A stretch of DNA of 64,000 nt, taken from Muricea muricata. Lineage: Eukaryota; Cnidaria; Anthozoa; Malacalcyonacea; Plexauridae. This document shows, one piece after another, positions 24,503 to 51,884 of this stretch. The position numbers and the translations under genes were made by a program. The stretch spans positions 12,702,946-12,766,945 of the forward strand of contig OY979727.1 in assembly GCA_963855995.1 (NCBI GenBank). The letters are read 5' to 3'. Within the stretch, counting starts at the first letter, position 1. Each line of letters starts with the position of its first letter. Below the pieces are notes generated by a model. It ran no database searches and had not been told where the DNA came from. It saw nothing but the letters and a program-made list of their open reading frames with translations.

Positions 24503-27500
24503 CGTCTAAAACATATTTATTTTTAAGCTGCTAGGAGATGATGAACAGCAATAAGTTTTAAAATCTAAGTTTTTAGAACTTAAAATAAGAATGCCAAAAA
24601 ATTCTCAACTATTGACTAGTTTATTTCTGACATTTTACAGAAAAATATTTTAAAATCTTACAATAAATCCCTGCATGAAGTGAGCCTGACAATACTCATC
24701 AAACTAGACTTGGCTTCCTGTCAATAGTACCAGCAGTAATTACGCCCATCTGACTGAGAACTGATCACTATAAAATATAACATGGCTGCATTGAACTAAT
24801 GTGCAAATGTAATGCAAATTGCTCAAATGTACAATACAAAAGAACAGTAACTCCGAACAACATTTTGATTGTTTTAATGAATCGACGTTTCAACTAAATT
24901 GTAGTCATCATCAGGATATCCTGTTGCTCGGAGTTACTATTCTTTTTATTTTATTAAAATAATGGGTGGCTCTGGTAACAATTGGTCAGCTGTGTGGTCT
25001 AGGTTCACAATGAAAATATAAACTATTAAAAAATGCATGTCAACTGTCATGCTTTGCATTGTAATATTTCACATCTTACTTGCAAAATTTATCTTATAAC
25101 CAAAAATAGGCAAGAAAAATCATTCTTTATTGCATCTCCATTAAAAATATCTTAAAATGAATAAGTGTATCCCTACAATGGTAGAGGTTTTTTATGGATT
25201 CAAAATGAAAATGTAATGATTTCAACATGCAATGCCAGTTGACACACATTCTTCAAGTCTCGTACAGTCATACTAACATTGCCAGCGACAGCAGTGCAGT
25301 CAAAAGCACACAGAAAACATAGGATCTTTCACCACATGAAACGACATAAACAGAATTCAACATCTCCACTAGCTTCTCAATGAAGTGCTTTGGCTTTAAG
25401 CTATCAAATGCTGTTTATATTGCTTTAAGAAGTAATTGAGATTCTTGTTTTGCATGAATTTGTCCCACAGCCTGAGGCACTATGACTTATCACTGAATAT
25501 TATGCCTGGATATATGCTCAGGATTAGGTTATCTGGTTAGGGCAGGGTCTTGTTCCCCATTAGTCATTCATTTTCTAAGCCAGGCTGAATTATCGATTAT
25601 TCAAGTATTATCATTTTACATTCTCCAGTTGTCAAACAATTTTACTTCAAGGTACAGGCATAATTGTGTAATTACATTACACTGAATGATTTTTAAATAC
25701 TGCATACTTAGGGTCTTTGTTAGGGTTAGGTTATATGTATATACACAACATACAGGATAGAGATATAAAGTGTATTTTCTGCAACACTGGCCTTACTCAT
25801 CAGAGGCTACCTATTATAGGCATAATAGGACTCTTGCATGAGATATGACCCCTACTGGACCTCTAATTGATCTGTTTGCAAGAAGCATCCAGTTGAAATT
25901 GCAGTCACTGAGGTTAGGTTTCCTCGTGTAGTAGCACCACAGACCATGGGAACATGTATGGTCACAGGCAACAGCAAAAGTTAAATAATTTTAAGACCTA
26001 TTTACAGTGTGAAAAATATTTATAATATACAATGAATAATTAATAACTAAAAGTAAACTTTTTACACTAATTTGCCCTGCATTAGAAATGAACTAATACA
26101 ACTTCAAAATTTACTTGTCTAAAAGTTTTTGGCATTTTTTTGTTTTTCATTCACAGGATATGTTTTTTGATAAAAATTTCACAAGTCATTTACAAACGCT
26201 GCATGAGCTTTAAATGTGTTTTTTATAAAGTTTGAACAATTCAAAGAGCACCCAAGACCCGAAACATATAATAATATTCCCCTCTTACTTATAATACAAT
26301 TAAAAATATTAATGTCCCCTGGGAATTGAGTAACTCTTGATTTGATACAATACATTCCAAAATATTTAAAATCACGCATTTTTAAAAGCGCCTTTTCAAA
26401 CTTCAAATTGCTCATTACTTCCATTCATAATGAGATTTTTGAGGATATTCACTGCCCGACACGATATCAACACACTGAAGTCCTCCGAACGGTTTTTTTA
26501 AGTCCAGAGGACTATTTGAGCTGGGAAATTTTAGGTGCGAATGCTCCCAAGAGCTTAGCACTTTAGCTTTAAAAACGAAAAGTTGGCTTCTTGACACAAA
26601 CGTCTCCTCAAAACACCCAGACAAAATGCTACACGTATGTCACTGTGCCTGGTCATAATTTTTTGCGAAAAAATGTTCATGTTGCCAGATTTAGCCCTTT
26701 ATCGTTTCAACGATTTCAGCCACAACAATTCGTTTCTTATCAAATTGACCCAAATACGCTGTTGTGGGTGGGATCCCCGTTCAAGAAGTAGGCAAATGGC
26801 CTTCATTACTCACCAAAGAATGTCGATCTTTCAATTTCTAAGTATGTATGCGAGTTTATTGCAAGAATTTTAGCGAGAGAAGAACTGAATGTGAAAAACA
26901 ACCGGCCAATATGGCGTGGTTTGGACTTGAGAATTTTGTGAGAATTTCGACGAAAGATACCGTTCAAAGCTATAATTTCTACTCTACGGGATAGTTCTTG
27001 CATCTAACACATACTTCCTGCAAAAATACTCCAAAATTCCGCGTCAATTTGCATCAGAAAAGCTTAAAACGCTCAACCGTTTTCGTTCATAAACGTTGGG
27101 CGAAAACAACATGTTCTTTCTTTCCCGACAAGAAACAAGTTTGTAGCACGTGACCTAAATCGTACGTTCTCATTGGTCAATCATAAAAACATTGACGACC
27201 GTTTTGAGTTCAACTGGAATGCTCGTTTATCATTCATGCTTCCACTTGTAATACTTTGAAGTATAAATGTGAAATTTATATAAAACTTAGTACGTACGGT
27301 ATCGCCTTTGTAGCGCATTACGACTTGGTCTGGTTCAAATATCGCTGAAATCTTTTGCAAAACGTTTAGCTCAAATTAAGGGGAAAAAGTTTAAAAATCG
27401 TTCCAAGTGATAGCCGGTCAGTAGCTGGCCGATTTTCTTAGGAATTTTTATTAGGTATAGCCTTTAGCCGTCCAAGTATGAGACAAATTGACTCAAACTG

Positions 27501-27584
27501 CCATAGAAAAATTTCTAGCCTAGCTACGATATGTTCGTAGCCATTGCTCCTTGAGAAACCGTGAGAAAAAAATTTCCTCGTTAG
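24503..27584. other. Region upstream of PPP1R10, no gene recognised
   Basis: Apart from the short inverted repeat, a degenerate copy of the 114-bp minisatellite near 25790-25960 and unique AT-rich DNA, nothing is identified. A 22.3-22.4 kb segment (GAAACGCACGCAGAAACATA) recurs diverged at 25280-25330. 5'UTR exons and the promoter of PPP1R10 should lie here. ATTGGTCAAT near 27173 resembles an inverted CCAAT box. Confidence 0.5.
24847..24936. repeat. Short inverted repeat (GTAACTCCGA ... TCGGAGTTAC)
   Basis: Ends GTAACTCCGAACAAC and GTTGCTCGGAGTTAC enclose about 60 bp that includes TCGACGTTTCAACTAAATTG and AGTCATCATCAGGA. It lies upstream of the PPP1R10 start codon. Confidence 0.6.
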
Positions 27585-30500
27585 TTTAAACAAAAGTATC
27601 GGCGAAATACTTCAGCGAGATTTGAACCAGAATAACAGGTAAATCACACCGATGTCCGCACCACTGCACCACACGATCATGCTTCAAACAAGGCTGCAAA
27701 TTATTGACTTTAACACTTTTGTTTCTTATATTTTAAACTAAAATGTTTGCGGATGATTCCTGCACGATTTGAACCAGACCAACTGGCAAATTACACCAAA
27801 GCCTGTAGCATTACACTACTCGTTCATGCTTATGCTGTACAACGTAAATTAATGACTTTAACCAATTTTTCACTTCATTTTAAACCAAAATGCTTTCGAC
27901 TGTCTGCATCGGGATTTGAACCAATGTAACCTGGCAATTCACACCAAAGCCTCTACCACTACACCACACTTGCATGCTTCAGCAAATCCTGCATATTATT
28001 AATTTTGACCATTTTTCTCTCTTTATGTTAAGCCAAAATTTTTTCAACACTCTTCCACGAGATTTGAGCCTGCCCACCAGGTAATTTATACCAAGCCTAC
28101 ACCACTAGACCACTTGTTCATCCTTATGGAGTAGGAGGTAGATTATTCACTTTAACTAATTTTTTTTCACTCAATTTTAAGCCAAAACACTGGCAACTGT
28201 CTACAACGAGATTTGAGCCAACGTAACTGATTCTTAACATCAAAGCCTCTACCACTAGACCAGTTGTTCATCCTTATACAACCTCGGGTAGATTCTTGAC
28301 TTTAACGATTTTTCTTGCTTAATTTTAAGCAAAAATACTTGCAACTGTTACAACAAGATTTGAACCAACGTAACTGATATTTAACACCAAAGCCTCTACC
28401 ACTGGACCACTTGTTCATCCTTATGCAACAGTAGGTAGATTATTGACTTTACCCATTTTTTTTTCACTTAATTTTAAGCCAAAACACTGAAACTGTCTAC
28501 AACGAGATTTGAACCAACATAACTGATACTTAGCACCAAATCCTCTACCACTAGACCACTTGTTCTTCCTTACCTTACGACTTTAACCAATTTTTTTACT
28601 TAATTTCAAGCCAAAATATTTTCAACTGTCTACAACGAGAACTGAACCAGCGTAACTTGTAATCAACACCAAACCCTGCCAAACCCTGTACCACTAAACC
28701 AGTTGTTAATCCCTATACAACCGCAGGTAAATTATTGACTATAACGATTTTTTTACTTAATTTTATGCAAAAATACTTGCAAATGTCTACAACGAGATTT
28801 GAACCAACGTAACTGATAATTAACAGCGTAGCCTGTACCACTAGACCACTTGTTCATCCTTATACAACCGCGGGTAGATTTTTGACTTTAACGATTTTTT
28901 TTACTTAATTTTAAGCAAAAATACTTGCAACTGTCTGCAACGAGATTTGAACCAACGTAACTGATAATTAACACCGCAGCCTCTACCACTAGACCAGTTG
29001 TTCATCCTTCTACAACCGCGGGTAGATTCTTGACTTTAACGATTTTTTTACTTAATTTTAAGCAAAAATACTTGCAACTGTCTACAACGAGATTTGAACC
29101 AACGTAACTGATTATTAACACACAGCCTGTACCACTAGACCAGTTGTTCATCCTTATGCAACCTCGGGTAGATTCTTGACTTTAACGATTTTTCTTGCTT
29201 AATTTTAAGCAAAAATACTTGCAGCTGTTACAACGAGATTTGAACCAACGTAACTGATACTTAACACTAAAGCCTCTACCACTAGACCACTTGTTCATCC
29301 TTATACAACAGTAGGTAGATTATTGACTTTACCCATTTTTTTTCACTTAATTTTAAGCCAAAACACTGGACACTGTCTACAACGAGATTTGAACCAACGT
29401 AACTGATACTTAACACCAAAGCCTCTACCACGAGACCACTTGTTCATCCTTATACAACAGTAGGTAGATTATTGACTTTACCCATTTTTTTTTCACCTAA
29501 TTTTAACCCAAAACACTGGAAACTGTCTACAACGAGATTTGAACCAACGTAACTGATACTTAGCACCAAAGCCTCTACCACTAGACCACTTGTTCATCCT
29601 TACGCAACAGTAGGTAGATTATTGACTTTACCCATTTTTTTTCACTTAATTTTAAGCCAAAATACTTGCAACTGTTACAACGAGATTTGAACCAACGTAA
29701 CTGATACTTAGCACCAAATCCTCTACCACGAGACCACTTGTTCATCCTTATACAACAGTAGGTAGATTATTGACTTTACCCATTTTTTTCACTTAATTTT
29801 AAGCCAAAATATTTTCATCTGTCTACAACGAGAACTGAACCAGCGTAACTTGTAATCAACACCAAACCCTGCCAAACCCTGTACCACTAAACCAGTTGTT
29901 AATCCCTATACAACCGCAGGTAAATTATTGACTATAACGATTTTTTTACTTAATTTTATGCAAAAATACTTGCAAATGTCTACAACGAGATTTGAACCAA
30001 CGTAACTGATAATTAACAGCGTAGCCTGTACCACTAGACCACTTGTTCATCCTTATACAACCGCGGGTAGATTTTTGACTTTAACGATTTTTTTTACTTA
30101 ATTTTAAGCAAAAATACTTGCAACTGTCTGCAACGAGATTTGAACCAACGTAACTGATAATTAACACCGCAGCCTCTACCACTAGACCAGTTGTTCATCC
30201 TTCTACAACCGCGGGTAGATTCTTGACTTTAACGATTTTTTTACTTAATTTTAAGCAAAAATACTTGCAACTGTCTACAACGAGGTTTGAACCAACGTAA
30301 CTGATTATTCACACACAGCCTGTACCACTAGACCAGTTGTTCATCCTTATGCAACCTCGGGTAGATTCTTGACTTTAACGATTTTTCTTGCTTAATTTTA
30401 AGCAAAAATACTTGCAGCTGTTACAACGAGATTTGAACCAACGTAACTGATACTTAACACTAAAGCCTCTACCACTAGACCACTTGTTCATCCTTATACA

Positions 30501-33500
30501 ACAGTAGGTAGATTATTGACTTTACCCATTTTTTTTCACTTAATTTTAAGCCAAAACACTGGACACTGTCTACAACGAGATTTGAACCAACGTAACTGAT
30601 ACTTAACACCAAAGCCTCTACCACGCGAGACCACTTGTTCATCCTTATACAACAGTAGATAGATTATTTACTTTACCCATTTTTTTTCACCTAATTTTAA
30701 CCCAAAACACTGGAAACTGTCTACAACGAGATTTGAACCAACGTAACTGATACTTAGCACCAAAGCCTCTACCACTAAACCACTTGTTCATCCTTACGCA
30801 ACAGTAGGTAGATTATTGACTTTACCCATTTTTTTTTCACTTAATTTTAAGCCAAAATACTTGCAACTGTTACAACGAGATTTGAACCAACGTAACTGAT
30901 ACTTGGCACCAAATCCTCTACCACGAGACCACTTGTTCATCCTTATACAACAGTAGGTAGATTATTGACTTTACCCATTTTTTTCACTTAATTTTAAGCC
31001 AAAATATTTTCATCTGTCTACAACGAGAACTGAACCAGCGTAACTTGTAATCAACACCAAACCCTGCCAAACCCTGTACCACTAAACCAGTTGTTAATCC
31101 CTATACAACCGCAGGTAAATTATTGACTATAACGATTTTTTTACTTAATTTTATGCAAAAATACTTGCAAATGTCTACAACGAGATTTGAACCAACGTAA
31201 CTAATAATTAACAGCGTAGCCTGTACCACTAGACCACTTGTTCATCCTTATACAACCGCGGGTAAATTTTTGACTTTAACGATTTTTTTTACTTAATTTT
31301 AAGCAAAAATACTTGCAACTGTCTGCAACGAGATTTGAACCAACGTAACTGATAATTAACACCGCAGCCTCTACCACTAGACCAGTTGTTCATCCTTCTG
31401 CAACCGCGGGTAGATTCTTGACTTTAACGATTTTTTTACTTAATTTTAAGCAAAAATACTTGCAACTGTCTACAACGAGATTTGAACCAACGTAACTGAT
31501 TATTGACACACAGCCTGTACCACTAGACCAGTTGTTCATCCTTATGCAACCTCGGGTAGATTCTTGACTTTAACGATTTTTCTTGCTTAATTTTAAGCAA
31601 AAATACTTGCAGCTGTTACAACGAGATTTGAACCAACGTAACTGATACTTAACACTAAAGCCTCTACCACTAGACCATTTGTTCATCCTTATACAACAGT
31701 AGGTAGATTATTGACTTTACCCATTTTTTTTCACTTAATTTTAAGCCAAAACACTGGACACTGTCTACAACGAGATTTGAACCAACGTAACTGGTACTTA
31801 ACACCAAAGCCTCTACCACGAGACCACTTGTTCATCCTTATACAACAGTAGATAGATTATTTACTTTACCCATTTTTTTTCACCTAATTTTAACCCAAAA
31901 CATTGGAAACTGTCTACAACGAGATTTGAACCAACGTAACTGATATTTAGCACCAAAGCCTCTACCACTAGACCACTTGTTCACCCTTACGCAACAGTGG
32001 GAAGATTATTGACTTTACCCATTTTTTTTCACTTAATTTTAAGCAAAAATACTTGCAACTGTTACAACGAGATTTGAACCAACGTAACTGATACTTAACA
32101 CCAAAGCCTCTACCACGAGACCACTTGTTCATCCTTATACAACAGTAGGTAGATTATTGACTTTACCCATTTTTTTCACTTAATTTTAAGCCAAAATATT
32201 TTCATCTGTCTACAACGAGAACTGAACCAGCGTAACTTGTAATCAACACCAAACCCTGCCAAACCCTGTACCACTAAACCAGTTGTTAATCTCTATACAA
32301 CCGCAGGTAAATTATTGACTATAACGATTTTTTTACTTAATTTTATGCAAAAATACTTGCAACTGTCTACAACGAAATTTGAACCAACGTAACTGATGAT
32401 TAAAACCAATGCCTGGACCACTAAACCACTTGTTCATCCGTATACAACAGTAGGTAGATCACTGGCTTTAACTAATTTTTTTACTTAATTTTAAGCCAAA
32501 ATACTTGCAACTGTTTACAACGAGATTTGAGCCAACGTAACTGATAATTAACACCGTAGCCGGCACCACTAGACCAGTCAGGTTCATCCATATACAACAG
32601 TTAGTAGATTACTGGCTTTAACTAATTTTTTTACTTAATTTTAAGCCAAAATACTTGCAATTGTCTACAACGAGATTTGAACCAACGAAACTGATAATTA
32701 ACACAAAATTCTGTACCACTAGACCAGTTGTTCATCCCTATACAACAGTAGGTAGGCTATTGACTTTAGCCATTTTTTCATTTAATTTTAAGCCAAAATT
32801 CTTCCAATTGCCTACAACGAGATTTGAACCAATGTAGCTGATAATTAATACCAAAGCCTGTACCACTAGACCTTTTTCTCGTCCTTATGCAGTAGCAGGT
32901 AGATTACTGACTTTTACTAATCTTTTCTACTTAGTTTTAAGCCAAAATACTGGCAACTGTCTAAAACGAGACTTAAACCAAAGTAAATTGTACTTAACAC
33001 CAAAGTTGTAGCACTAGACCACTTGTTCATCCTTATAAAACAGTAGGTAGATTACTGACTTTAACTTTTTTTTTACTTAATTTTAAGCCAAAACACTTGC
33101 AGCTGTGTACAACGAGATTTGAAACGTAACTGTAATTAACACCAAATCCTGTGCCACTATAGATCAGTTGTTCATTCTTAAACAACAGCAGGTAGATTAT
33201 TGATGTTAAGTAATTTTTTTTATTTATTTTTAAGCCAAAGTAGTGGCAACTGTCGGCAGCGAGATTTGAACCAACGTAACTGACAATTAACATCAAAGCC
33301 TGTGCCGCTAAATCACTTGTTCACCCTTATACAACAGTAGGTAGATTATTTACTTTAACCATTTTTCTATTTAATTTTAAGCCAAAATACTTGCAACTCT
33401 CTACAACGAGATTTGAACCAACCATTTTTCATCCTTATACAACAGTAGGTAGATTACTGATTTTAACTAATCTTTTTTCTTAATTTTAAGCCAAAATACT

Positions 33501-33653
33501 TGCAATTGTTTGAAACGAGACTTGACCAACGTAGCTTGTAATTAACACACAACGCTGCACCACTAGACTACTTGTTCATCTTTATGTAACAATTGGTAGA
33601 TTATTCACTTTAATCATTTTTTTGATTAATTTTAAAGGTAGGTTACAGTCGCT
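27585..33653 (-). repeat. Left tRNA-like satellite array, about 41 monomers of about 147 bp
   Basis: Read on the minus strand, each monomer has GAACAAGTGGTCTAGTGGTA, then GAGGCTTTGG-type sequence, then GGTTCAAATCTCGTTGTAGA. TGGTCTAGTGG fits the Pol III A box (TRGYNNARNNG). GTTCAAATC fits the B box (GWTCRANNC). The boxes are about 43 bp apart, as in an intron-less tRNA gene. A T4-T5 run (AAGTATTTTTGC) follows the B box by about 20-25 bp. Spacing between successive units is 146-148 bp. Units at the left edge (27.6-28.3 kb) are the most diverged; the interior is homogenised. The arm pairing is too poor for a functional tRNA. Confidence 0.9.
28641..32230 (-). repeat. Higher-order repeat of 8 monomers (about 1193 bp, three copies)
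   Basis: A distinctive variant monomer (ACTGAACCAGCGTAACTTG, with a duplicated CCAAACCCTG) recurs at 28641, 29834, 31029 and 32221, i.e. every 1192-1195 bp. The seven monomers in between repeat in the same order with few differences. This indicates recent block duplication or unequal exchange. Confidence 0.88.
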
Positions 33654-33680
33654 AATGTAAACAAACGCTTTGTTTACATT
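33654..33680. repeat. Perfect palindrome at the centre of the two arrays
   Basis: Arms AATGTAAACAAA and TTTGTTTACATT, 12 bp each, perfect, with a 3-bp spacer CGC. Each arm contains TGTTTAC, a forkhead-type core, in opposite orientations. It replaces the B-box half of the last left monomer. About 40 bp to the right a left-type A-box half (near 33700-33712) runs straight into a right-type B-box half (GGGTTTAAGCACTG). Confidence 0.9.
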
Positions 33681-33718
33681 TTGAGCCTGTACCACGAGAC
33701 CACTTGTTCATCCTTACA

Positions 33719-36700
33719 CGGGTTTAAGCACTGACTTAATTATACTCTTTTCCTTTCGTTGTTATAGTGAAAAGTACGTTAAATAAAATAATATGCCGCG
33801 TCAACACACAAATTAACAAGTGGTCTGGTGGTACTTGCTACCATTTGTCACACCGTTTTTCTGGGTTCAAGCACAGGCCTAATCAACCTCTGTTTCTTTG
33901 GTAGTTAAAGTGAAAAATGCGTTAAATAAAATAATATGCCGCACTGACACACAAATGAACAAGTGGTCTAGTGGTATTTGCTACCAGTTGTCAGGCAGTT
34001 TCTTCAGGGTTCAAGCACTGGCCTAATCATCCTCTTTTCGTTTGGTTCTTAAAGTGAAAAAATGCGTTAAATAAAATAATATGCCGTGTTAATACACAAA
34101 TGGACAAGTGGTCTAGTGGTACTTACTACAAAATTTCAGGCAGCTTATTCAGGGTTAACGCACTGGCCTAAGCATCCTCATTTACTTTGGTTGTTAAGAT
34201 GAAAAATGCGTCATCAAATAAAATAATATGCCGTACTAACACACCAACGAACAAGTGGTCTAGTGGTACTTGCTACCAATTATCAAGCCGTTTCTTCAGG
34301 GTTCAAGAACTGGCCTAATCGTCTTTTTTTACTTCGGTTCTTAAAGTGAAAAATGTGTCATCAAATAAAATAATATGCCGTACTAACACACCAACGAACA
34401 AGTGGTCTAGTGGTACTAGCTACCAAATATCAAGCCGTTTCTTCAGGGTTCAAGCACTGGCCTAATCGTCTTTTTTTACTTCGGTTCTTAAAGTGAAAAA
34501 TGTGTCATCAAATAAAATAATATGCCGTACTAACACACCAACGAACAAGTGGTCTAGTAGTATTAGCTACCAATTATCAAGCCGTTTCTTCAGGGTTCAA
34601 GCACTGGCCTAATCATCTTTTTTTACTTCGGTTCTTAAAGTGAAAAATGTGTCATCAAATAAAATAATATGCCGTACTAACACACCAACGAACAAGTGGT
34701 CTATTGGTACTTGCTGCCAATTATCAAGCCGTTTCTTCAGGGTTCAAGAACTGGCCTAATCGTCGTTTTTTACTTCGGTTCTTAAAGTGAAAAATGTGTC
34801 ATCAAATAAAATAATATGCCGTACTAACACACCAACGAACAAGTGGTCTAGTGGTACTTGCTACCAATTATCAAGCCGTTTGTTCAGGGTTCAAGCACTG
34901 GCCTAATCGTCTTTTTTTACTTCGGTTCTTAAAGTGAAAAATGTGTCATCAAATAAAATAATATGCCGTACTAACACACCAACGAACAAGTGGTCTAGTG
35001 GTACTTGCTACCAATTATCAAGCCGTTTCTTCAGGGTTCAAGAACTGGCCTAATCATCGTTTTTTACTTCGGTTCTTAAAGTGAAAAATGTGTCATCAAA
35101 TAAAATAATATGCCGTACTAACACACCAACGAACAAGTGGTCTAGTGGTACTTGCTACCAATTATCAAGCCGTTTCTTCAGGGTTCAAGAACTGGTTTAA
35201 TCGTCGTTTTTTACTTCGGTTCTTAAAGTGAAAAATGTGTCATCAAATAAAATAATATGCCGTACTAACACACCAACGAACAAGTGGTCCAGTGGTACTT
35301 TCTACCAATTATCAAGCCGTTTCTTCAGGGTTCAAGAACTGGCCTAATCGTCGTTTTTTACTTCGGTTCTTAAAGTGAAAATGTGTCATCAAATAAAATA
35401 ATATGCCGTACTAACACACCAACGAACAAGTGGTCTAGTTGTACTTGCTACCAATTATCAAGCCGTTTCTTCAGGGTTCAAGAACTGGCCTAATCGTCGT
35501 TTTTTACTTCGGTTCTTAAAGTGAAAAATGTGTCATCAAATAAAATAATATGCCGTACTAACACACCAACGAACAAGTGGTCTAGTAGTACTAGTTACCA
35601 ATTATCAAGCCGTTTCTTCAGGGTTCAAGCACTGGCCTAATCATCTTTTTTTATTTCGGTTCTTAAAGTGAAAAATGTGTCATCAAATAAAATAATATGC
35701 CGTACTAACACACCAACGAACAAGTGGTCTATTGGTACTTGCTGCCAATTATCAAGCCGTTTCTTCAGGGTTCAAGAACTGGCCTAATCGTCGTTTTTTA
35801 CTTCGGTTCTTAAAGTGAAAATGTGTCATCAAATAAAATAATATGCCGTACTAACACACCAACGAACAAGTGGTCTAGTGGTACTTGCTACCAATTATCA
35901 AGCCGTTTCTTCAGGGTTCAAGAACTGGCCTAATCATCGTTTTTTACTTCGGTTCTTAAAGTGAAAAATGTGTCATCAAATAAAATAATATGCCGTACTA
36001 ACACACCAACGAACAAGTGGTCTAGTGGTACTTGCTACCAATTATCAAGCCGTTTCTTCAGGGTTCAAGAACTGGTTTAATCGTCGTTTTTTACTTCGGT
36101 TCTTAAAGTGAAAAATGTGTCATCAAATAAAATAATATGCCGTACTAACACACCAACGAACAAGTGGTCCAGTGGTACTTTCTACCAATTATCAAGCCGT
36201 TTCTTCAGGGTTCAAGAACTGGCCTAATCGTCGTTTTTTACTTCGGTTCTTAAAGTGAAAATGTGTCATCAAATAAAATAATATGCCGTACTAACACACC
36301 AACGAACAAGTGGTCTAGTGGTACTTGCTACCAATTATCAAGCCGTTTCTTCAGGGTTCAAGAACTGGCCTAATCGTCGTTTTTTACTTCGGTTCTTAAA
36401 GTGAAAAATGTGTCATCAAATAAAATAATATGCCGTACTAACACACCAACGAACAAGTGGTCTAGTAGTACTAGCTACCAATTATCAAGCCGTTTCTTCA
36501 GGGTTCAAGCACTGGCCTAATCATCTTTTTTTATTTCGGTTCTTAAAGTGAAAAATGTGTCATCAAATAAAATAATATGCCGTACTAACACACCAACGAA
36601 CAAGTGGTCTATTGGTACTTGCTGCCAATTATCAAGCCGTTTCTTCAGGGTTCAAGAACTGGCCTAATCGTCGTTTTTTACTTCGGTTCTTAAAGTGAAA

Positions 36701-39700
36701 ATGTGTCATCAAATAAAATAATATGCCGTACTAACACACCAACGAACAAGTGGTCTAGTGGTACTTGCTACCAATTATCAAGCCGTTTCTTCAGGGTTCA
36801 AGAACTGGCCTAATCGTCGTTTTTTACTTCGGTTCTTAAAGTGAAAAATGTGTCATCAAATAAAATAATATGCCGTACTAACACACCAACGAACAAGTGG
36901 TCTAGTAGTACTAGCTACCAATTATCAAGCCGTTTCTTCAGGGTTCAAGAACTGGCCTAATCGTCGTTTTTTACTTCGGTTCTTAAAGTGAAAAATGTGT
37001 CATCAAATAAAATAATATGCCGTATTAACACACCAACGAACAAGTGGTCCAGTGGTACTTGCTACCAATTATCAAGCCGTTTCTTCAGGGTTCAAGAACT
37101 GGCCTAATCGTCGTTTTTTACTTCGGTTCTTAAAGTGAAAATGTGTCATCAAATAAAATAATATGCCGTACTAACACACCAACGAACAAGTGGTCTAGTG
37201 GTACTTGCTACCAATTATCAAGCCGTTTCTTCAGGGTTCAAGAACTGGCCTAATCGTCGTTTTTTACTTCGGTTCTTAAAGTGAAAAATGTGTCATCAAA
37301 TAAAATAATATGCCGTACTAACACACCAACGAACAAGTGGTCTAGTGGTACTTGCTACCAATTATCAAGCCGTTTCTTCAGGGTTCAAGCACTGGCCTAA
37401 TCATCCTCTTTTCCTTTGGTTCTTAAAGTGAAAAATGTGTCATCAAATAAAATAATATGCCACGCGAACTCACAAATGAAGATGTGGTCAAGTGGTACTT
37501 GCTACCAATTATCACGCCGTTTCTTCAGGGTTCAAGAACTGGCCTAATCATCGTTTTTTACTTCGGTTCTTAAAGTGAAAAATGTGTCATCAAATAAAAT
37601 AATATGCCGTACTAACACACCAACGAACAAGTGGTCTAGTAGTACTAGCTACCAATTATCAAGCCGTTTCTTCAGGGTTCAAGCACTGGCCTAATCATCT
37701 TTTTTTACTTCGGTTCTTAAAGTGAAAAATGTGTCATCAAATAAAATAATATGCCGTACTAACACACCAACGAACAAGTGGTCTATTGGTACTTGCTGCC
37801 AATTATCAAGCCGTTTCTTCAGGGTTCAAGAACTGGCCTAATCGTCGTTTTTTACTTCGGTTCTTAAAGTGAAAAATGTGTCATCAAATAAAATAATATG
37901 CCGTACTAACACACCAACGAACAAGTGGTCTAGTGGTACTTGCTACCAATTATCAAGCCGTTTCTTCAGGGTTCAAGCACTGGCCTAATCATCCTCTTTT
38001 CCTTTGGTTCTTAAAGTGAAAAATGTGTCATCAAATAAAATAATATGCCACGCTAACTCACAAATGAAGATGTGGTCAAGTGGTACTTGCTACCAATTAT
38101 CACGCCGTTTCTTCAGGGTTCAAGAACTGGCCTAATCATCGTTTTTTACTTCGGTTCTTAAAGTGAAAAATGTGTCATCAAATAAAATAATATGCCGTAC
38201 TAACACACCAACGAACAAGTGGTCTAGTAGTACTAGCTACCAATTATCAAGCCGTTTCTTCAGGGTTCAAGCACTGGCCTAATCATCTTTTTTTACTTCG
38301 GTTCTTAAAGTGAAAAATGTGTCATCAAATAAAATAATATGCCGTACTAACACACCAACGAACAAGTGGTCTATTGGTACTTGCTGCCAATTATCAAGCC
38401 GTTTCTTCAGGGTTCAAGAACTGGCCTAATCGTCGTTTTTTACTTCGGTTCTTAAAGTGAAAAATGTGTCATCAAATAAAATAATATGCCGTACTAACAC
38501 ACCAACGAACAAGTGGTCTAGTGGTACTTGCTACCAATTATCAAGCCGTTTGTTCAGGGTTCAAGCACTGGCCTAATCGTCTTTTTTTACTTCGGTTCTT
38601 AAAGTGAAAAATGTGTCATCAAATAAAATAATATGCCGTATTAACACACCAACGAACAAGTGGTCTAGTGGTACTTGCTACCAATTATCAAGCCGTTTCT
38701 TCAGGGTTCAAGAACTGGCCTAATCATCGTTTTTTACTTCGGTTCTTAAAGTGAAAAATGTGTCATCAAATAAAATAATATGCCGTACTAACACACCAAC
38801 GAACAAGTGGTCTAGTGGTACTTGCTACCAATTATCAAGCCGTTTCTTCAGGGTTCAAGAACTGGCCTAATCGTCGTTTTTTACTTCGGTTCTTAAAGTG
38901 AAAAATGTGTCATCAAATAAAATAATATGCCGTACTAACACACCAACGAACAAGTGGTCCAGTGGTACTTGCTACCAATTATCAAGCCGTTTCTTCAGGG
39001 TTCAAGAACTGGCCTAATCGTCGTTTTTTACTTCGGTTCTTAAAGTGAAAATGTGTCATCAAATAAAATAATATGCCGTACTAACACACCAACGAACAAG
39101 TGGTCTAGTGGTACTTGCTACCAATTATCAAGCCGTTTCTTCAGGGTTCAAGAACTGGCCTAATCATCGTTTTTTACTTCGGTTCTTAAAGTGAAAAATG
39201 TGTCATCAAATAAAATAATATGCCGTACTAACACACCAACGAACAAGTGGTCTAGTGGTACTTGCTACCAATTATCAAGCCGTTTCTTCAGGGTTCAAGA
39301 ACTGGTTTAATCGTCGTTTTTTACTTCGGTTCTTAAAGTGAAAAATGTGTCATCAAATAAAATAATATGCCGTACTAACACACCAACGAACAAGTGGTCC
39401 AGTGGTACTTTCTACCAATTATCAAGCCGTTTCTTCAGGGTTCAAGAACTGGCCTAATCGTCGTTTTTTACTTCGGTTCTTAAAGTGAAAATGTGTCATC
39501 AAATAAAATAATATGCCGTACTAACACACCAACGAACAAGTGGTCTAGTGGTACTTGCTACCAATTATCAAGCCGTTTCTTCAGGGTTCAAGAACTGGCC
39601 TAATCGTCGTTTTTTACTTCGGTTCTTAAAGTGAAAAATGTGTCATCAAATAAAATAATATGCCGTACTAACACACCAACGAACAAGTGGTCTAGTAGTA

Positions 39701-42700
39701 CTAGCTACCAATTATCAAGCCGTTTCTTCAGGGTTCAAGCACTGGCCTAATCATCTTTTTTTATTTCGGTTCTTAAAGTGAAAAATGTGTCATCAAATAA
39801 AATAATATGCCGTACTAACACACCAACGAACAAGTGGTCTATTGGTACTTGCTGCCAATTATCAAGCCGTTTCTTCAGGGTTCAAGAACTGGCCTAATCG
39901 TCGTTTTTTACTTCGGTTCTTAAAGTGAAAATGTGTCATCAAATAAAATAATATGCCGTACTAACACACCAACGAACAAGTGGTCTAGTGGTACTTGCTA
40001 CCAATTATCAAGCCGTTTCTTCAGGGTTCAAGAACTGGCCTAATCGTCGTTTTTTACTTCGGTTCTTAAAGTGAAAAATGTGTCATCAAATAAAATAATA
40101 TGCCGTACTAACACACCAACGAACAAGTGGTCTAGTAGTACTAGCTACCAATTATCAAGCCGTTTCTTCAGGGTTCAAGAACTGGCCTAATCGTCGTTTT
40201 TTACTTCGGTTCTTAAAGTGAAAAATGTGTCATCAAATAAAATAATATGCCGTATTAACACACCAACGAACAAGTGGTCCAGTGGTACTTGCTACCAATT
40301 ATCAAGCCGTTTCTTCAGGGTTCAAGAACTGGCCTAATCGTCGTTTTTTACTTCGGTTCTTAAAGTGAAAATGTGTCATCAAATAAAATAATATGCCGTA
40401 CTAACACACCAACGAACAAGTGGTCTAGTGGTACTTGCTACCAATTATCAAGCCGTTTCTTCAGGGTTCAAGAACTGGCCTAATCGTCGTTTTTTACTTC
40501 GGTTCTTAAAGTGAAAAATGTGTCATCAAATAAAATAATATGCCGTACTAACACACCAACGAACAAGTGGTCTAGTGGTACTTGCTACCAATTATCAAGC
40601 CGTTTCTTCAGGGTTCAAGCACTGGCCTAATCATCCTCTTTTCCTTTGGTTCTTAAAGTGAAAAATGTGTCATCAAATAAAATAATATGCCACGCGAACT
40701 CACAAATGAAGATGTGGTCAAGTGGTACTTGCTACCAATTATCACGCCGTTTCTTCAGGGTTCAAGAACTGGCCTAATCATCGTTTTTTACTTCGGTTCT
40801 TAAAGTGAAAAATGTGTCATCAAATAAAATAATATGCCGTACTAACACACCAACGAACAAGTGGTCTAGTAGTACTAGCTACCAATTATCAAGCCGTTTC
40901 TTCAGGGTTCAAGCACTGGCCTAATCATCTTTTTTTACTTCGGTTCTTAAAGTGAAAAATGTGTCATCAAATAAAATAATATGCCGTACTAACACACCAA
41001 CGAACAAGTGGTCTATTGGTACTTGCTGCCAATTATCAAGCCGTTTCTTCAGGGTTCAAGAACTGGCCTAATCGTCGTTTTTTACTTCGGTTCTTAAAGT
41101 GAAAAATGTGTCATCAAATAAAATAATATGCCGTACTAACACACCAACGAACAAGTGGTCTAGTGGTACTTGCTACCAATTATCAAGCCGTTTCTTCAGG
41201 GTTCAAGCACTGGCCTAATCATCCTCTTTTCCTTTGGTTCTTAAAGTGAAAAATGTGTCATCAAATAAAATAATATGCCACGCTAACTCACAAATGAAGA
41301 TGTGGTCAAGTGGTACTTGCTACCAATTATCACGCCGTTTCTTCAGGGTTCAAGAACTGGCCTAATCATCGTTTTTTACTTCGGTTCTTAAAGTGAAAAA
41401 TGTGTCATCAAATAAAATAATATGCCGTACTAACACACCAACGAACAAGTGGTCTAGTAGTACTAGCTACCAATTATCAAGCCGTTTCTTCAGGGTTCAA
41501 GCACTGGCCTAATCATCTTTTTTTACTTCGGTTCTTAAAGTGAAAAATGTGTCATCAAATAAAATAATATGCCGTACTAACACACCAACGAACAAGTGGT
41601 CTATTGGTACTTGCTGCCAATTATCAAGCCGTTTCTTCAGGGTTCAAGAACTGGCCTAATCGTCGTTTTTTACTTCGGTTCTTAAAGTGAAAAATGTGTC
41701 ATCAAATAAAATAATATGCCGTACTAACACACCAACGAACAAGTGGTCTAGTGGTACTTGCTACCAATTATCAAGCCGTTTGTTCAGGGTTCAAGCACTG
41801 GCCTAATCGTCTTTTTTTACTTCGGTTCTTAAAGTGAAAAATGTGTCATCAAATAAAATAATATGCCGTATTAACACACCAACGAACAAGTGGTCTAGTG
41901 GTACTTGCTACCAATTATCAAGCCGTTTCTTCAGGGTTCAAGAACTGGCCTAATCATCGTTTTTTACTTCGGTTCTTAAAGTGAAAAATGTGTCATCAAA
42001 TAAAATAATATGCCGTACTAACACACCAACGAACAAGTGGTCTAGTGGTACTTGCTACCAATTATCAAGCCGTTTCTTCAGGGTTCAAGAACTGGCCTAA
42101 TCGTCGTTTTTTACTTCGGTTCTTAAAGTGAAAAATGTGTCATCAAATAAAATAATATGCCGTACTAACACACCAACGAACAAGTGGTCCAGTGGTACTT
42201 GCTACCAATTATCAAGCCGTTTCTTCAGGGTTCAAGAACTGGCCTAATCGTCGTTTTTTACTTCGGTTCTTAAAGTGAAAATGTGTCATCAAATAAAATA
42301 ATATGCCGTACTAACACACCAACGAACAAGTGGTCCAGTGGTACTTGCTACCAATTATCAAGCCGTTTCTTCAGGGTTCAAGAACTGGCCTAATCGTCGT
42401 TTTTTACTTCGGTTCTTAAAGTGAAAAATGTGTCATCAAATAAAATAATATGCCGTACTAACACACCAACGAACAAGTGGTCCAGTGGTACTTGCTACCA
42501 ATTATCAAGCCGTTTCTTCAGGGTTCAAGAACTGGCCTAATCGTCGTTTTTTACTTCGGTTCTTAAAGTGAAAATGTGTCATCAAATAAAATAATATGCC
42601 GTACTAACACACCAACGAACAAGTGGTCTAGTGGTACTTGCTACCAATTATCAAGCCGTTTCTTCAGGGTTCAAGAACTGGCCTAATCGTCGTTTTTTAC

Positions 42701-44290
42701 TTCGGTTCTTAAAGTGAAAAATGCGTCATCAAATAAAATAATATGCCGTACTAACACACCAACGAACAAGTGGTCTAGTGGTACTTGCTACCAATTATCA
42801 AGCCGTTTCTTCAGGGTTCAAGCACTGGCCTAATCATCCTCTTTTCCTTTGGTTCTTAAAGTGAAAAATGTGTCATCAAATAAAATAATATGCCACGCTA
42901 ACTCACAAATGAAGATGTGGTCAAGTGGTACTTGCTACCAATTATCACGCCGTTTCTTCAGGGTTCAAGAACTGGCCTAATCATCCTTTTTCCTTTGGTT
43001 CTTAAAGTTAAAAATACGTTAAATAAAATAATATGCCGTGTTAAAACACAAATGGACTAGAGGTCTAGTGGTACTTGCTACCAATTTCCAGGCTGCTTCT
43101 TCAGGGTTCAAAAACTGGCCTAATCGTCCTTTTTCCTTTGGTTCTTAAAGTGAAAAATGCGTCATCAAATAAAATAATATGCCGTGCTAACACACCAATG
43201 AACAAGTGGTCAAGTGGTACTTGCTACCAATTATCAAGCCGTTTCTTCAGGGTTCAAGCACTGGCCTAATCATCCTTTTTCCTTTGGTTCTTAAAGTTAA
43301 AAATACGTTAAATAAAATAATATGCCGTACTAAAACACAAATGAACAAGTGGTCAAGTGGTACTTGCTTCCAATTATCAAGCCGTTTCTTCTGGTTTCAA
43401 GCACTGGCCTAATCATTCTTATTTTCTTTGGTTCTTAAAGTGAAAAATACGTTAAATAAAATAATATGCCACGCTAACTCACAAATGAAGATGTGGTCAA
43501 GTGGTACTTGCTACCAATTATCACGCCGTTTCTTCAGGGTTCAAGAACTGGCCTAATCATCCTTTTTCCTTTGGTTCTTAAAGTTAAAAATACGTTAAAT
43601 AAAATAATATGCCGTACTAAAACACAAATGAACAAGTGGTCAAGTGGTACTTGCTACCAATTATCAAGCCGTTTCTTCAGGGTCAAGCACTGGCCTAATC
43701 ATCCTTTTTCCTTTGGTTCTTAAAGTTAAAAATACGTTAAATAAAATAATATGCCGTACTAAAACACAAATAAACAAGTGGTCAAGTGGTACTTGCTTCC
43801 AATTATCAAGCCGTTTCTTCTGGTTTCAAGCACTGGCCTAATCATTCTTATTTTTTTTTGGTTCTTAAAGTGAAAAGTACGTTAAATAAAATAACATGCC
43901 ACGCTAATTCAGAAATGAACAAGTGGTCTAGTGGTATTTGTTACCAATTATCAAGCAATATCTTCAGGGTTCAAGAACTGGCCTAATCATCCTTTTTCCT
44001 TTGGTTCTTAAGTGAAAAATGCGTCATCAAATAAAATAGTATGCCGTGTTAACACAGAAATGAACAAGTGGTCTAGTGGTACTTGCTACCAATTATCAGG
44101 TAGTTTCTTCAGGGTTCAAGGCTTGGGTTGATGCGTCCTTGTTTTCTTGGTTCTTAATGCGAAAAAATGCCGCATGTAGAATAATATGCTGCGCTTGAAA
44201 ACAAATGAATAAGTGGTCTTGTGGTACTTGGTACTAATATCCGTGCAGTTTCTGCAAGTGGTTCAAGTTTCGGCGTGACCATGCAGTTTT
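33719..44290 (+). repeat. Right tRNA-like satellite array, about 72 monomers of 146-147 bp
   Basis: Plus-strand monomer: GAACAAGTGGTCTAGTGGTA, then CTTGCTACCAATTATCAAG, then CAGGGTTCAAG, then a T6-T7 run (TCGTTTTTTAC), then the spacer with ATCAAATAAAATAATATGCC. With G of GAACAAG as position 1, the A box starts at T8 and G53-T54-T55-C56-A57-A58 falls at the tRNA position for the T arm. The period is 147 bp (146 where one A is lost). Variants in the A box (TGGTCCAGTGG, TGGTCTAGTAG, TGGTCAAGTGG) mark subtypes. Both edges, 33.7-34.2 and 43.0-44.3 kb, are diverged. CTTG/CAAG may form a small hairpin, but no true cloverleaf is visible. Confidence 0.92.
35830..42290 (+). repeat. Two tandem copies of a 3230-bp, 22-monomer higher-order repeat
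   Basis: Marker variants recur exactly 3230 bp apart: CACGCGAACT at 37461 and 40691, CACGCTAACT at 38049 and 41279, ACTGGTTTAA at 36071 and 39301. The match breaks before about 35830, where the marker at 35191 has no partner. So 35830-39060 was duplicated to 39060-42290. Smaller shifts of 880 bp (6 units) and 588 bp (4 units) show earlier rounds. Confidence 0.88.
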
Positions 44291-44525
44291 TTTTGTCTTT
44301 AAGTGGAATGTTATTTTGGATCGGTTAATTATTTGGTGGATTTTTTAAAGAAAATAGCATGTCAGAGCGTGGAGAATATTCAATGCCTAAATAAGCTATT
44401 TAGAGGCTATTTTATGGAATAAACATCGTAATCTGCCATATATTCTGCAATGAACTGCTGAAGGTCGGTTCTATTCAATCAACTTTATCGCTGTTACATG
44501 ACGTATCCCGCTTTCTCAAAACAAC

Positions 44526-47500
44526 ATGGCTTTCACGTGTAGGAGATTTTCGCAACAATTTTATATTAAATCTCGCTCGAAGTTATTCCTGTGGACGACT
44601 GCAAGTTGTAAAAGTCGAAAGAAGAAGAAAAGTGCATTATTTTCTACACATGCTGAACCATTTGTATGTTAATTTCAGAGGTTTATTTCTGTAGGCACGA
44701 GCATAAGGTCTAGTGTTGATAGTGCATTTTTTATTAAAATGGAAAATAATAATATTTTCTGCACATGAGCTTTGTATGCTGATTGTCTATTTGACGTGGT
44801 ACGTACACACTGCTTACAAGCACAATGGATTGCAAAAGAAATGAAACAGAATACTGAATCATTAATACATGAAGATTCCCCCCCCCCCTGATTATCATTC
44901 TGGCTATGTATGCTACTGACAATGCAATCCACAGTAAACATAACTAATCCTGATGCACTTGCCACCATATCATGCAAGCACAGTTTGTATCTTGTCAGAC
45001 AATACATCTATCCAGGTTTTGCCCATTGAACTATAATTCAATGGGTTTTGCCTAGTCTCTTACGCAGCCTGATCGAGGGTAGGTTTTGCCTGATCTGGGG
45101 ACCAAACTTCGTGTTACTTTGATCTATAGGGGAAAATTGCTGATGGTAATCCACAGTCACAGAGGCCGAGCAGACAAGAGAGAATGTTGAGAGGTTTACC
45201 AAAGAGGAAGTCTATTGAAGGAGTCAAAGATGTCATTGTGGTTGCTTCTGGCAAGGGTGGTGTTGGCAAATCAACTTGTGCTGGTTAGTTGAGATGAAAC
45301 TCACAGAAATATAATCATCTGTAAAGTCTAGTTATGATTATTATCAATATCGTTATCATTATCCATGATCATGCATCACTATTATCTTCACCAATCATCG
45401 TCACCATTATCATCTTCACCACTACCTCCACCTTTCATAACCATCACTATACCATCTTCCCAATGATATCCATCATCATCACCATCTTCATTAACTCCAG
45501 CAGTCATACTACATGATTACCACTATATCACATTACAACTCTCTGTATTTTAGTCAATCTGGCCCTGGGACTAGCAGCTATAAACAAGGTACTGTTTGTG
45601 CACAGTATATACAGTACTAAATCCATTATTAATCTACCAATACCATGTACTGTAATGGTACCAACCTAATTGCATACTCTACCATTATCTTCCAGAATAG
45701 AAGTGTTGGTCTTCTTGATGCTGACATTTATGGACCATCTATTCCAAAAATGATGAACCTCGCTGGAAATCCACAACTTACTCAAGGTTTTTTGTCAAAA
45801 ATAATAAAATCATAGTGTAAATCTTAACAATAATCTACTATATTTTCTGTTCTTGATGTTATGATTTGGATGAACAGGGTAGGTTGTACTAAGGGTGGAT
45901 ACTGCTATCCACTGGATAGGAATTTTTTCAACTGTCGCAGAGAGGCGTAAAAAGTAATGACGCCAGGGATATTGAACTCATAAAAGATAAAAAGTGACTT
46001 TAACTTGAAAATGCTGAACTTTAATATGGGTTTTACCAGTTACTGAACATGTTTAGAAAGATTGATAAAATCACTATCCGGTGACTAATGCTATTCACCT
46101 TTCGTGCAGCCTAGTTACCTCCCAGGTCGATATATGCAAAATTTGAATTTCTTTCTACATTATTTAGACAACAAAATGGAACCTTTAAGGAACTATGGCA
46201 TTTCATGGTGAGAGACACGAGCTATATCTGTTACGGGCCAAGATGTTTTTTAAGTAGCCCAAAAATGTTCCCTTTTTCCAGTAAACATCATCTGAAAACA
46301 GCTTTGTTTGTTTCCGCATTCAGCATGTCGATGGGATTTTTGGTAGATGAGAAATCTCCGATAATTTGGCGAGGTTTGATGGTCATGTCCGCGCTTGAGA
46401 AGCTGCTGAGACAGGTGAACTGGGGGGCATTAGATGTCCTTGTTGTGGATATGCCACCTGGGACAGGGGACACGCAGCTGTCCATATCCCAAACTGTCCC
46501 TCTTTCAGGTGTGTCTTACATTAACTAACGTAGTAGAGCAATTTATCGATTTGATGTCCTGCATGATTCCACCTATTGTCATACTGGAGAAAATCTAAAC
46601 TAAATTATAAATTGTATTTATTTTACAGAGCTATCAAAACCTATACTATGAGCATACCTCTTGTGCCATTAGAGAGAATCAGATTGTTATAGTATTATTA
46701 TTATTATTTTTTCATCCAGGGGCTATCATTGTTACAACACCTCAGGACATCGCACTTTTGGATGCTCGAAAGGGCGCCAAAATGTTCCAGAAAGTTCACG
46801 TTCCTGTACGTAACACCACCCAATGTGTCCTGTAGTGTAGAGCTATCCAGTATAAGTAAAGTTTAGTTTAGGTTTCCTCCTGTTGTAACACTGGATCAAT
46901 AAGAGATGATCCTTACTGGACCTCTAGGAAGAACAGTTTAGAACTGATAGAGCTATCCAGTATAAATAAAGTTAGTTTAGTTAAGGTTTCCTCCTGTAGT
47001 AACACTGGATCAATAAGAGATGATCCTTACTGGACCTCTAGGAAGAACAGTTTAGAACTGATAGAGCTATCCAGTATAAGTAAAGGTAGTTTAGTTTAGG
47101 TTTTCTCCTGTAGTAACACTGGATCAATAAGAGATGATTCTTACTCAACCTTTAGGAAGAACAGTTTAGAACTGATAGAGCTATCCAGCGTAAATAAAGT
47201 TAGTTTAGTTTAGATTTCCTTCTGTAGTAACACTGGATCAATAAGAAATGATCCTTACTGGACCTCTAGGAAGAAAATTATAAATACTGCTACAAAATTT
47301 TTGAAAGCAAATTTTGCTTTTTAGGTGCTCGGTGTTATTGAGAACATGAGTCACCACGTCTGTCCTAAATGCAATCATAAAGAATACATATTTGGCGAAA
47401 GCGGCGCTAAAACTTTAGCTGAAGAAATGAAGTTGGAAATATTAGGTGAATAAATTCTTAAAATACATCTCCAGGGTTAAAGAAAGTTGTTAATTAATAA

Positions 47501-48780
47501 CTTATTTGTTCATGCAGACCTAAAAACGCGGCAATATGTTTTCGGACCATCACGCCCTATATTAACCGTACTAACGCATTCTTAATTCTATATTTTTTCT
47601 TTTACCACGCCAGGAAACATACCTCTGCATATATCAATTCGCGAGACTTCAGATACGGGCTCTCCTGTGACAATTTCTAGTCCAAACAGTCCTGAGGTAC
47701 GGAGTATTTGTATGATTGAAATGCACTTTATACTTACGAAGTTGGCTTATTCAAGACAACCACCATTGACGCCGGAACCTTAAAGGGCCAGGGCGGGCAA
47801 ACGTTTGTTGAAGGGCAGCGACAAAATTTTAAACATGTTAACGTTCTTATGCGGGAATGTAGAGGGTCAAATATGAGTCCAATTTCGTCAATTTACAGTG
47901 CTACAGCAGGTTTTGTTATCACTAAGGCATCTTGAAAACTGACTGTTCAAAAACAAAGCGAAAAAACTCAACTGCACCCCCCCCCCCCCCTTTCGCCAAT
48001 TTCGGCTTCCCTGGCAATTAGATGTACTAATGTAATCATGTTTCGCTCACTGCTCTGGTTATGTAAAATACACAGCCAATCGAATTGTATTCTAGGTGGA
48101 ACTGTAGCAACGTTGAGTCTTGAATGCAAGTGGCCTTGTATTTGTTTAAAGGGATATGGCAATATATTTTTTGATTGGCTTATTGCCAAGAACTATTGAA
48201 ATAACTTTAAAATCCGTTGTTAGATTTTTAGTAGCATGTTAGTTTCTGTATTATTGAACGACAAAGACACCAGCTATCTGCCATCTTGTTTTATAATGAG
48301 GTCTATTTTGATGACGTCACAACCATGGAGGAAAGTATAAAACTTGCTGTTAGTTGTTTAAATCCCTATGAAATTTTCCGAAAACTTTTCAACATATGTA
48401 AGAAGTATATACATACAAATCCAGCAATTTCGAAAATCGTATATCTTTTCTATGTGCTCATTAAGAAAACAAATTTTACCCTGGTTGTGGCGTCATTGGT
48501 TTTTGAATATCCAAGATGGCGAACAGCTTATTTCTTTGTCATATCTTTGTCCTTTAATATTTCAAAAGCATGCTATCAAAAATTTAAAAATGGATTTTAG
48601 AGTTATTTCAATAGTTCTTAGCCGTTTAGCCAATAAAAATATATTGCCATATCCCTTTAAGTATGGCCAGGTTAGGAGGTAAAAATATCCAACCTCTCAT
48701 TTTGAGAAATTGCCTTCCATTTTTAGGCGATGGTGTACAAAGAAATCGCGAGGAAAGTTGCTGAAAAGTTGCGATGGTAA
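44526..48780 (+). CDS. NUBPL: Mitochondrial Fe-S scaffold P-loop protein NUBPL (Ind1/Mrp family)
   Basis: Ten exons: 44526-44663, 45130-45283, 45554-45588, 45696-45786, 46168-46207, 46324-46508, 46720-46805, 47325-47445, 47614-47696, 48727-48780. They total 987 bp, 328 aa, close to human NUBPL (319). The N-terminus is rich in Arg, Lys and Ser, like a mitochondrial presequence. [20 protein letters not shown] carries the deviant Walker A motif (GKGGVGKST, residues 87-95). It is followed by [62 protein letters not shown] and the CPKC motif (C256, C259) that in this family binds a 4Fe-4S cluster between two subunits. Known role: delivery of Fe-S clusters to respiratory complex I. The start is the first ATG with a targeting-like sequence and a phase-0 donor. 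All family motifs are intact. Confidence 0.96.
45330..45520. repeat. Degenerate ATC/TCATCA-rich tract in NUBPL intron 2
   Basis: Imperfect ATC, ACC and TTC triplets, an eroded relative of simple (ATC)n. No coding value. Confidence 0.8.
45890..46113. mobile_element. MITE family C, full copy
   Basis: The left end GTAGGTTGTACTAAGGGTGG and the right end, whose complement begins CTAGGCTGCACGAAAGGTGA, are imperfect TIRs. Near each end sits CTATCC-GGATAG. The interior has AAAGTGACTTTAA and GAACATGTTTAGAAAGATTG, shared with 62375-62578. In NUBPL intron 4. Confidence 0.72.
46838..47277 (+). repeat. 114-bp minisatellite, 4 copies, in NUBPL intron 7
   Basis: Unit: GAGCTATCCAGTATAAATAA, then TTAGTTTAGGTTTCCTCCTG, then TAGTAACACTGGATCAATAA, then GATCCTTACTGGACCTCTAG, then GAAGAACAGTTTAGAACTGA. 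Marker spacing is 114 bp (46931, 47045, 47159). It fills most of the intron 46806-47324. Confidence 0.92.
48146..48660. mobile_element. TTAA-flanked TIR element, 515 bp, copy 2
   Basis: Starts TTAAAGGGATATGGCAATAT and ends with the near complement ATATTGCCATATCCCTTTAA. TIRs of about 70 bp include GAACTATTGAAATAACT and its complement. The interior has ATGACGTCAC and AAGATGGCGAAC. It occupies the last NUBPL intron. Its ends and length match the element at 20959-21473, but the inner TIR has diverged. The two overlapping frames inside are not supported as genes. Confidence 0.85.
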
Positions 48781-49435
48781 AACTATCCGTGACACTAACA
48801 AGGTTTGTTGATGAAACTTTCGTTGCTTTTAAACCATCAAATCACAGTAATTGTGGGAAACTCGACTGGGGAAATACTAGCCGCTAGTGTTGGCGGAAGA
48901 CGTGAGCAAGGACGATGTTGAGATAGGAGCAGTTGGTATAAAGATATATAGATGGAATATTTTCCATGGATTTTCTTGAGAGTGAAGTCCCCGAAAACTC
49001 ATGGGATACTGATAGGTTTATTGATTGGATTTGTCGCGCGATTTTACTGATACGTTGATGAGAGGGTTTTGCAAAGCAAAGAAGTACTAATAAGAATACA
49101 CAATTACAATAGTCTGTGTGAACGTACCTAAAGCATTCAGACGGCAATATGACGCAGTACAAATTATGAATATTTTGCAGTGATGAATCAAATTCAATAT
49201 TGAACATACATAATTATGTTATCGTCTGCTAATGAATATAACATGAAGTTTTATTGACAGGCTATACTACTATGTAAACACACCTACATATCGACAAGGG
49301 TATAAAATTAAAAATCGTAGGAGATATAAAATATTCCTTAAGTATTGCTAGTTAATATATATTACGATTACTCATGCTTTTACTTAGTTATTACTGGTTA
49401 TTCATGAATCATGTTAATCAAGTAGTCTTCGTTCC

Positions 49436-51782: not shown

Positions 51783-51884
51783 AAATTCTAAGTTCTAATA
51801 ATTGCTAATTATTGGCACCGCAATTTATTCCGCTCGCCTACGCGATAACACGAGTGAAAGGTCCAGTTATCGTTACATCCTCTA

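Follow-up and report, generated by a model that had tools for sequence, protein, structure and literature searches.

Outward-pointing tandem arrays of a 147-bp unit with tRNA-type Pol III promoter-like anatomy in the cnidarian Muricea muricata

The genome of Muricea muricata (453 Mb, 74 contigs) contains a satellite family whose 147-bp unit combines an A box, a B box at a tRNA-like distance and a T-run, and whose neighboring arrays mostly point away from each other, many of them with telomere-like tracts upstream of the first unit. We analyzed one such pair in a window of 64,000 nucleotides (C12:12702946-12766945) together with related loci in the rest of the genome. In our interpretation, the pair is a two-armed satellite whose unit would derive from a tRNA-type Pol III unit; we give this reading, including the history proposed below, a probability of about one half.

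A scan of the window with an 18-mer core identified about 112 monomers of ~147 bp, 40 in a left array on the minus strand and 72 in a right array on the plus strand, in good agreement with a preliminary description made from the sequence, which had reported two outward-pointing arrays with a total of about 113 monomers. Tandem Repeats Finder assigned a period of 147 to both arrays (27766-33422 and 33781-44120) and a second period of 440 to the right one. Intervals between monomers in the core scan are 143-158 bp in the left arm, except for values of 132, 255 and 294, and 142-147 bp in the right arm, and the mean pairwise identity of monomers is 81% and 92%, respectively. According to profile matches, the arms are placed head-to-head and point outward from a gap of ~97 bp (Table 1). 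With units arranged head-to-tail, homogenized within arrays and present at many loci, the arrays qualify as satellite DNA. The 20-mer that carries the A box had been described as identical in both arrays; its exact form is limited to 8 of the 40 left and 30 of the 72 right monomers, but with up to two mismatches it is found at 94 places in the window (0.01 expected), on the minus strand in the left array and on the plus strand in the right one. The array observation as a whole is confirmed.

Table 1. Coordinates of the two arrays, of one representative unit from each and of flanks that recur at the second copy of this locus (window positions).
Feature	Position	Strand	Remarks
Left array	27598..33714	-	About 40-42 monomers of ~147 bp; predicted transcription sense leftward; 42 profile matches
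Centre separating the arms	33715..33810		Without telomere-like tract
Right array	33811..44281	+	72 monomers; 72 profile matches; 440-bp (three-monomer) higher-order period
A box TGGTCTAGTGG, one left monomer	28838..28848	-	Sequence reading; exact 20-mer at 28836-28855
B box GGTTCAAATCT, same left monomer	28795..28805	-	43 nt from the A box
T5 run, terminator-like, same left monomer	28769..28773	-	21 nt past the B box
A box, one right monomer	34256..34266	+	Sequence reading; exact 20-mer at 34249-34268
B-box-like element GGTTCAAGAAC, same right monomer	34300..34310	+	44 nt from the A box
T7 run, terminator-like, same right monomer	34324..34330	+	Past the B-box-like element
Left edge common with the copy at C12:8.65 Mb	26811..28231		84% identical
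Right flank, in pieces common with the copy at C12:8.65 Mb	44282..49409		81.7% identical to 44976
Right-flank pieces compared with the copy at C12:8.65 Mb	45081-46501; 48304-48876; 49190-49409		88%; 91%; 89% identical
NUBPL-like exon pieces, open frames, right flank	45130-45285 and 46115-46525

In the left consensus, the A box TGGTCTAGTGG is followed 43 nt on by a near-canonical B box, GGTTCAAATCT, and a T4-5 run begins 21 nt past the latter. The right consensus has an altered B-box-like element, GGTTCAAGAAC, with an A-B spacing of 44, and its T6-7 run begins 14 nt past that element. The preliminary description had placed a B-box core at tRNA spacing and a T-run about 25 bp downstream in both families: the left arm agrees with the former whereas the right B box is altered, and the run is present in both arms, although closer than had been proposed.

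Searches of the genome revealed that the unit belongs to a family with arrays at many loci. The 20-mer, for which a genome-wide search had been suggested as a check, has 75 exact places; its variant GAACGAGTGGTCTAGTGGTA has 278 places, and 112 places match a longer pattern when one mismatch is allowed. With the left consensus as query, at least 191 matches were obtained (best 40 of 716 candidates scored). No satellite place on C1 or C2 was among the matches listed. A profile scan of 31 fetched stretches (L009-L039, 335,518 bases) and the window yielded 819 unit matches. For comparisons between loci, 62 arms were reduced to 47 consensuses by dropping 15 with fewer than three usable units, and then to 27 arm types by removing 20 consensuses with at least 90% identity to a kept one.

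The promoter-like elements recur across these 27 diverged arm types. The A-B spacing is 43 in 18 of them (the spacing of 51 in L029-206 is not real, because the A box was mis-set for that arm), a B box with up to two mismatches is present in 23, compared with 0 of 27 in a reversed-sequence control, and a T4+ run is present in 25, at 20-21 nt in 16. Judged by its sequence, the unit is a putative type 2 internal Pol III promoter unit, with an A box, a B box at a tRNA-like distance and a T-run as the predicted terminator. Averaged over columns, identity among the arm types is 0.97 in the A box, 0.90 in the B box and 0.74 between the boxes, with 0.81 in the 40 upstream columns and 0.73 downstream; of the 139 alignment windows ordered by conservation, that of the A box comes 3rd and that of the B box 20th. 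The boxes are not alone in being conserved, since nearly all of the first 16 upstream columns, which are AT-rich (AAAGTCAATAATTTAC), are at 0.7-0.9, approximately the conservation of the B box.

Within the window, the two arms behave differently in this respect. In the left arm, divergence is 0.064 in the B box and 0.130 elsewhere, with 7 of 148 comparison windows as low; this is the less biased figure, because the left monomers were found through the A-box core, which biases the corresponding values for the A box (0.061 vs 0.131; 5 of 148). With all 72 right-arm monomers, the values are 0.052 in the A box and 0.049 elsewhere (88 of 147 as low or lower) and 0.045 in the B box and 0.050 elsewhere (76 of 147). 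When only the 35 distinct right monomers are considered, the 20-mer is low (10 of 147 windows) but the A and B boxes do not stand out (58 and 76 of 147). The preliminary description had named mutation of the boxes at the rate of the spacer as an argument against its interpretation; in the left arm, the boxes have roughly half the variation of the remaining unit, but the right arm, with all 72 monomers counted, has no box conservation. Overall, that interpretation is partly supported.

The units had also been proposed not to be decoding tRNAs, and this holds. The Rfam tRNA model RF00005 has no match inside the window arrays even at E up to 10 and none anywhere in the window at the gathering cut-off, and ARAGORN in default mode found no tRNA in the window; its matches at very low thresholds were everywhere and were discarded as noise. 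In eight other loci, the sole tRNA match lies outside the arrays (L038:9050-9121). Decoding tRNAs are therefore rejected, as neither the covariance model nor ARAGORN recovers a cloverleaf. RNAalifold produced no consensus structure (0.0) over the alignment of the 27 arm types. A separate tandem array of canonical-looking tRNA genes was observed at C1:68.26-68.74 Mb: 62 of the 63 tRNA matches scored (best 63 of 55,957 candidates) are on C1 within 0.5 Mb, and several of those in the array are spaced 346 bp or multiples of it. C1 also has one GFP-like match, and a 45-aa piece has its best match among GFP-type PDB chains in 2rh7, an entry from the octocoral Renilla, which is a weak hint at an octocoral.

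Although the left and right consensuses of the window are only 53% identical, their global alignment with the 20-mer fixed scores 93.7, above all 500 shuffles (mean 67.0, sd 8.2, maximum 93.2), the best of them only just. Full-length intermediates that join the left and right types are present at other loci, so the two window arms belong to one family. The earlier statement that the monomers differ almost completely outside the promoter-like core is thus an overstatement, and conservation of the core alone is not borne out: the arms are homologous over the full length of the unit, with the AT-rich upstream stretch of 16 bp also conserved. The right-arm type forms a derived branch with L017 (support 0.98); of the fetched loci, the window and L018 alone carry the type itself, and L017 is placed next to them. 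We do not uphold the idea that this type is unique to two loci: a search gave at least 17 matches, all at C12:8.65 Mb, but it proves little because the window's own copies were missed and only the best one of two candidates was scored.

L018, at C12:8.65 Mb, is a second copy of the window locus that includes both arms, both flanks and NUBPL-like exons, pieces of which lie within the right-flank stretch of 88% identity. The left arms of the two copies are 93% identical and the right arms 85%. Since both arms and flanks are common to the two loci, the arms were already paired when this duplication took place. The neighborhood contains further features of its own. RAD50-like exons with Walker B and zinc hook (window 53165-53362 and 60479-60865, minus strand) and an F-box-like exon (51438-51794, minus) lie beside the locus. 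An 80-bp tandem repeat at 5526-5746 and 57323-57907 has a unit with GTGGTGGTCTAGTG or GTGGTGGTCCAGTG, which resemble the A-box string of the satellite; no B box was seen in it by eye. Another tandem repeat of ~113 bp, with a common unit in either orientation, is scattered at 46838-47275, 54303-54839, 55939-56302 and 61541-61976. Open frames at L018:2153-3136, within the left array of that locus, and at L022:4968-6116 look Penelope-like by eye; both match Pfam GIY-YIG, the former below the cut-off and the latter just above.

The divergent arrangement is not confined to the window and its copy. Adjacent arrays of opposite orientation with at least two units are divergent in 17 cases and convergent in one (p 7e-5), or in 13 and one after duplicates are collapsed (p 9e-4). 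These counts cover fetched loci or exact places of GAACGAGTGGTCTAGTGGTA and leave out single-unit runs, as well as a minus-then-plus pair at 818-834 kb on C3, 13 kb apart with an unfetched gap; including single-unit runs within single fetched loci gives 19 and 5. One more divergent pair, beyond the 17, is located on C7 (13.90-13.92 Mb). Chromosomal position differs between contigs. On C4-C13, 6 of 9 loci with the exact 20-mer are no more than 1.05 Mb from the end of their contig (KS p 0.0026; p 0.0084 when one copy is dropped), and the 22 loci on C3 have no such trend (KS p 0.62). In all seven comparable two-armed loci near contig ends (C4, C6, C8, C12), the larger arm points toward the nearer end; in this comparison the C4 case at 0.74 Mb is represented by 17 minus and one plus exact matches, and the two C8 loci are copies.

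Telomere-like tracts are associated with the starts of the arrays. With a tract defined as at least four repeats in 500 bp, 21 of 47 arms have one in the upstream flank and 1 of 47 in the downstream flank, compared with 5 of 322 background windows. One C3 module accounts, through its copies, for many of the arms with tracts, so the independent cases number about five or six. The 335,518 fetched bases contain 17 CCCTA/TAGGG clusters, and 14 of these lie upstream of a first unit at a distance of at most 260 bp. The tracts are composed of CCCTAA or CCCTAG, with up to 84 repeats (L013). CCCTAA runs also begin 2.5 kb into C1, as expected of a chromosome end. Within two-armed centres, the tracts run one way only, unlike those of a simple telomere-telomere fusion. 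No telomere tract was found in the centres of the window, L018, L014, L015, L017, L036 and L038. The presence of tracts at array starts suggests that arrays were seeded on, or joined to, broken or terminal DNA.

We propose the following history. The ancestor of the unit would have had an upstream AT-rich element, an A box, a B box 43 nt on and a T-run ~21 nt further. Recognition by TFIIIC and Pol III would be an ancestral property of the units and may persist in some arms. Unequal exchange, along with duplication at the higher-order level, may have made the arms grow. Inverted joining of DNA with interstitial telomeric sequence, or of DNA from chromosome ends, could have given rise to two-armed loci, as could repair around breaks at array starts, and the finished loci would then have spread via segmental duplication. 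The window pair would be a descendant locus that lost or never had its telomere tract, and its right arm would have drifted from a working promoter. The rarity of convergent pairs could be accounted for by replication-transcription conflict; in yeasts, tRNA genes are described as sites of fork pausing and chromatin boundaries, and head-on collisions are reported to be worse than co-directional ones (PMC5368702). A more specific proposal seems to us improbable: stranded telomere repeats, from fragments of chromosome ends or breaks repaired with telomere sequence, would nucleate outward-pointing Pol III-type arrays, replication or transcription conflict would spare only divergent ones, and every two-armed locus would be the trace of a former break, fusion or origin.

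Several other explanations deserve consideration. The main rival, for the C3 module, is spread by a mobile element: the arrays would be cargo of a fold-back, Helitron-like or other non-autonomous element with repeat-bearing ends, and the loci its insertions. In its favor, at least ten C3 loci, in either orientation, resemble one another on both sides of the arrays, with flank identities of roughly 80-93%, and reverse transcriptase or GIY-YIG frames are present in or near L018, L020, L022 and L009. However, the window pair was copied as a segment together with gene exons and is not an insertion with defined limits, the centre sequences of two-armed loci on other contigs are mostly not shared, the partly fetched boundaries have no clear common outer limit or target-site duplication, and the C3 module has no common long coding frame. 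On balance, we consider this explanation unlikely, if less so than those that follow.

While persistence of the promoter-like elements and the T-run across diverged arms, the low variation of the boxes in the left arm, the yeast precedents cited above and the direction of the larger arm, toward the nearer contig end, in the seven comparable loci would all be compatible with a working gene cluster, in which selection keeps putative promoter elements either for a short Pol III RNA or for TFIIIC-bound boundary or fork-pausing sites, the lack of a conserved RNA fold and of box conservation in the right arm speaks against it, and we rate it slightly lower. Lowest of all, below even the proposal that telomere repeats nucleate the arrays, we place a neutral satellite, in which the boxes persist by common descent from a tRNA-related sequence without any role and one ancestral inverted locus was copied around. 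The unconstrained boxes of the right arm and the evident copies among two-armed loci (window and L018, L014 and L015, L019 and L039) fit it well; about 13 loci remain after copies are collapsed, with mostly unrelated centres, and the left-arm boxes are low in variation, neither of which it would lead one to expect.

Tandem families of Pol III type have been described in amphibians, namely PolIII/TAN in the newt Cynops, OAX or satellite I in Xenopus and Rana/polIII; the newt family is reported to be transcribed in vitro and, by the title of its source paper, derived from tRNA-Glu (all as given in the accessible part of PMC10702118). Like the Muricea muricata arrays, these are tandem units with a tRNA-like Pol III segment; as far as that part of the source describes them, they differ from the family reported here, which has a 147-bp unit, small scattered arrays, mostly divergent neighbors and upstream telomere-like tracts. 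The same text describes SINE-derived satellites of scaled reptiles, with a unit of ~143-151 bp in geckos and a preference for positions near chromosome ends; they are similar to the window arrays in homogenization and unit length, but the C3 loci are not near contig ends and no dispersed parent SINE, only scattered single-unit matches, was found in the 335 kb scanned, which is DNA chosen for its arrays. Telomeric repeats adjoin satellite DNA inside chromosomes at Indian muntjac fusion sites and at human 2q13, and at the muntjac sites they run all one way, as in the two-armed centres; the available parts of these sources mention neither a Pol III nature of the satellites nor a divergent pair of arrays (PMC2760882, PMC6410037). 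Our literature searches found no report of inverted or head-to-head arrays with tRNA and none combining interstitial telomeric sequence, satellite, tRNA, RNA polymerase III and subtelomeric.

The preliminary description called a tRNA-like satellite of this kind unusual, which is partly right: tRNA-like tandem families are on record in newt, Xenopus and Rana, and what is new, relative to the accessible text on these and on the SINE-derived satellites of reptiles, is the divergent, telomere-tract-linked layout, which that description did not contain. With this family, the short list of tRNA-like satellites, drawn from amphibians and reptiles, comes to include a cnidarian. If the layout holds genome-wide, it would provide a natural test of two questions: what makes tandem units of Pol III type adopt a divergent arrangement, and whether interstitial telomere repeats seed satellites.
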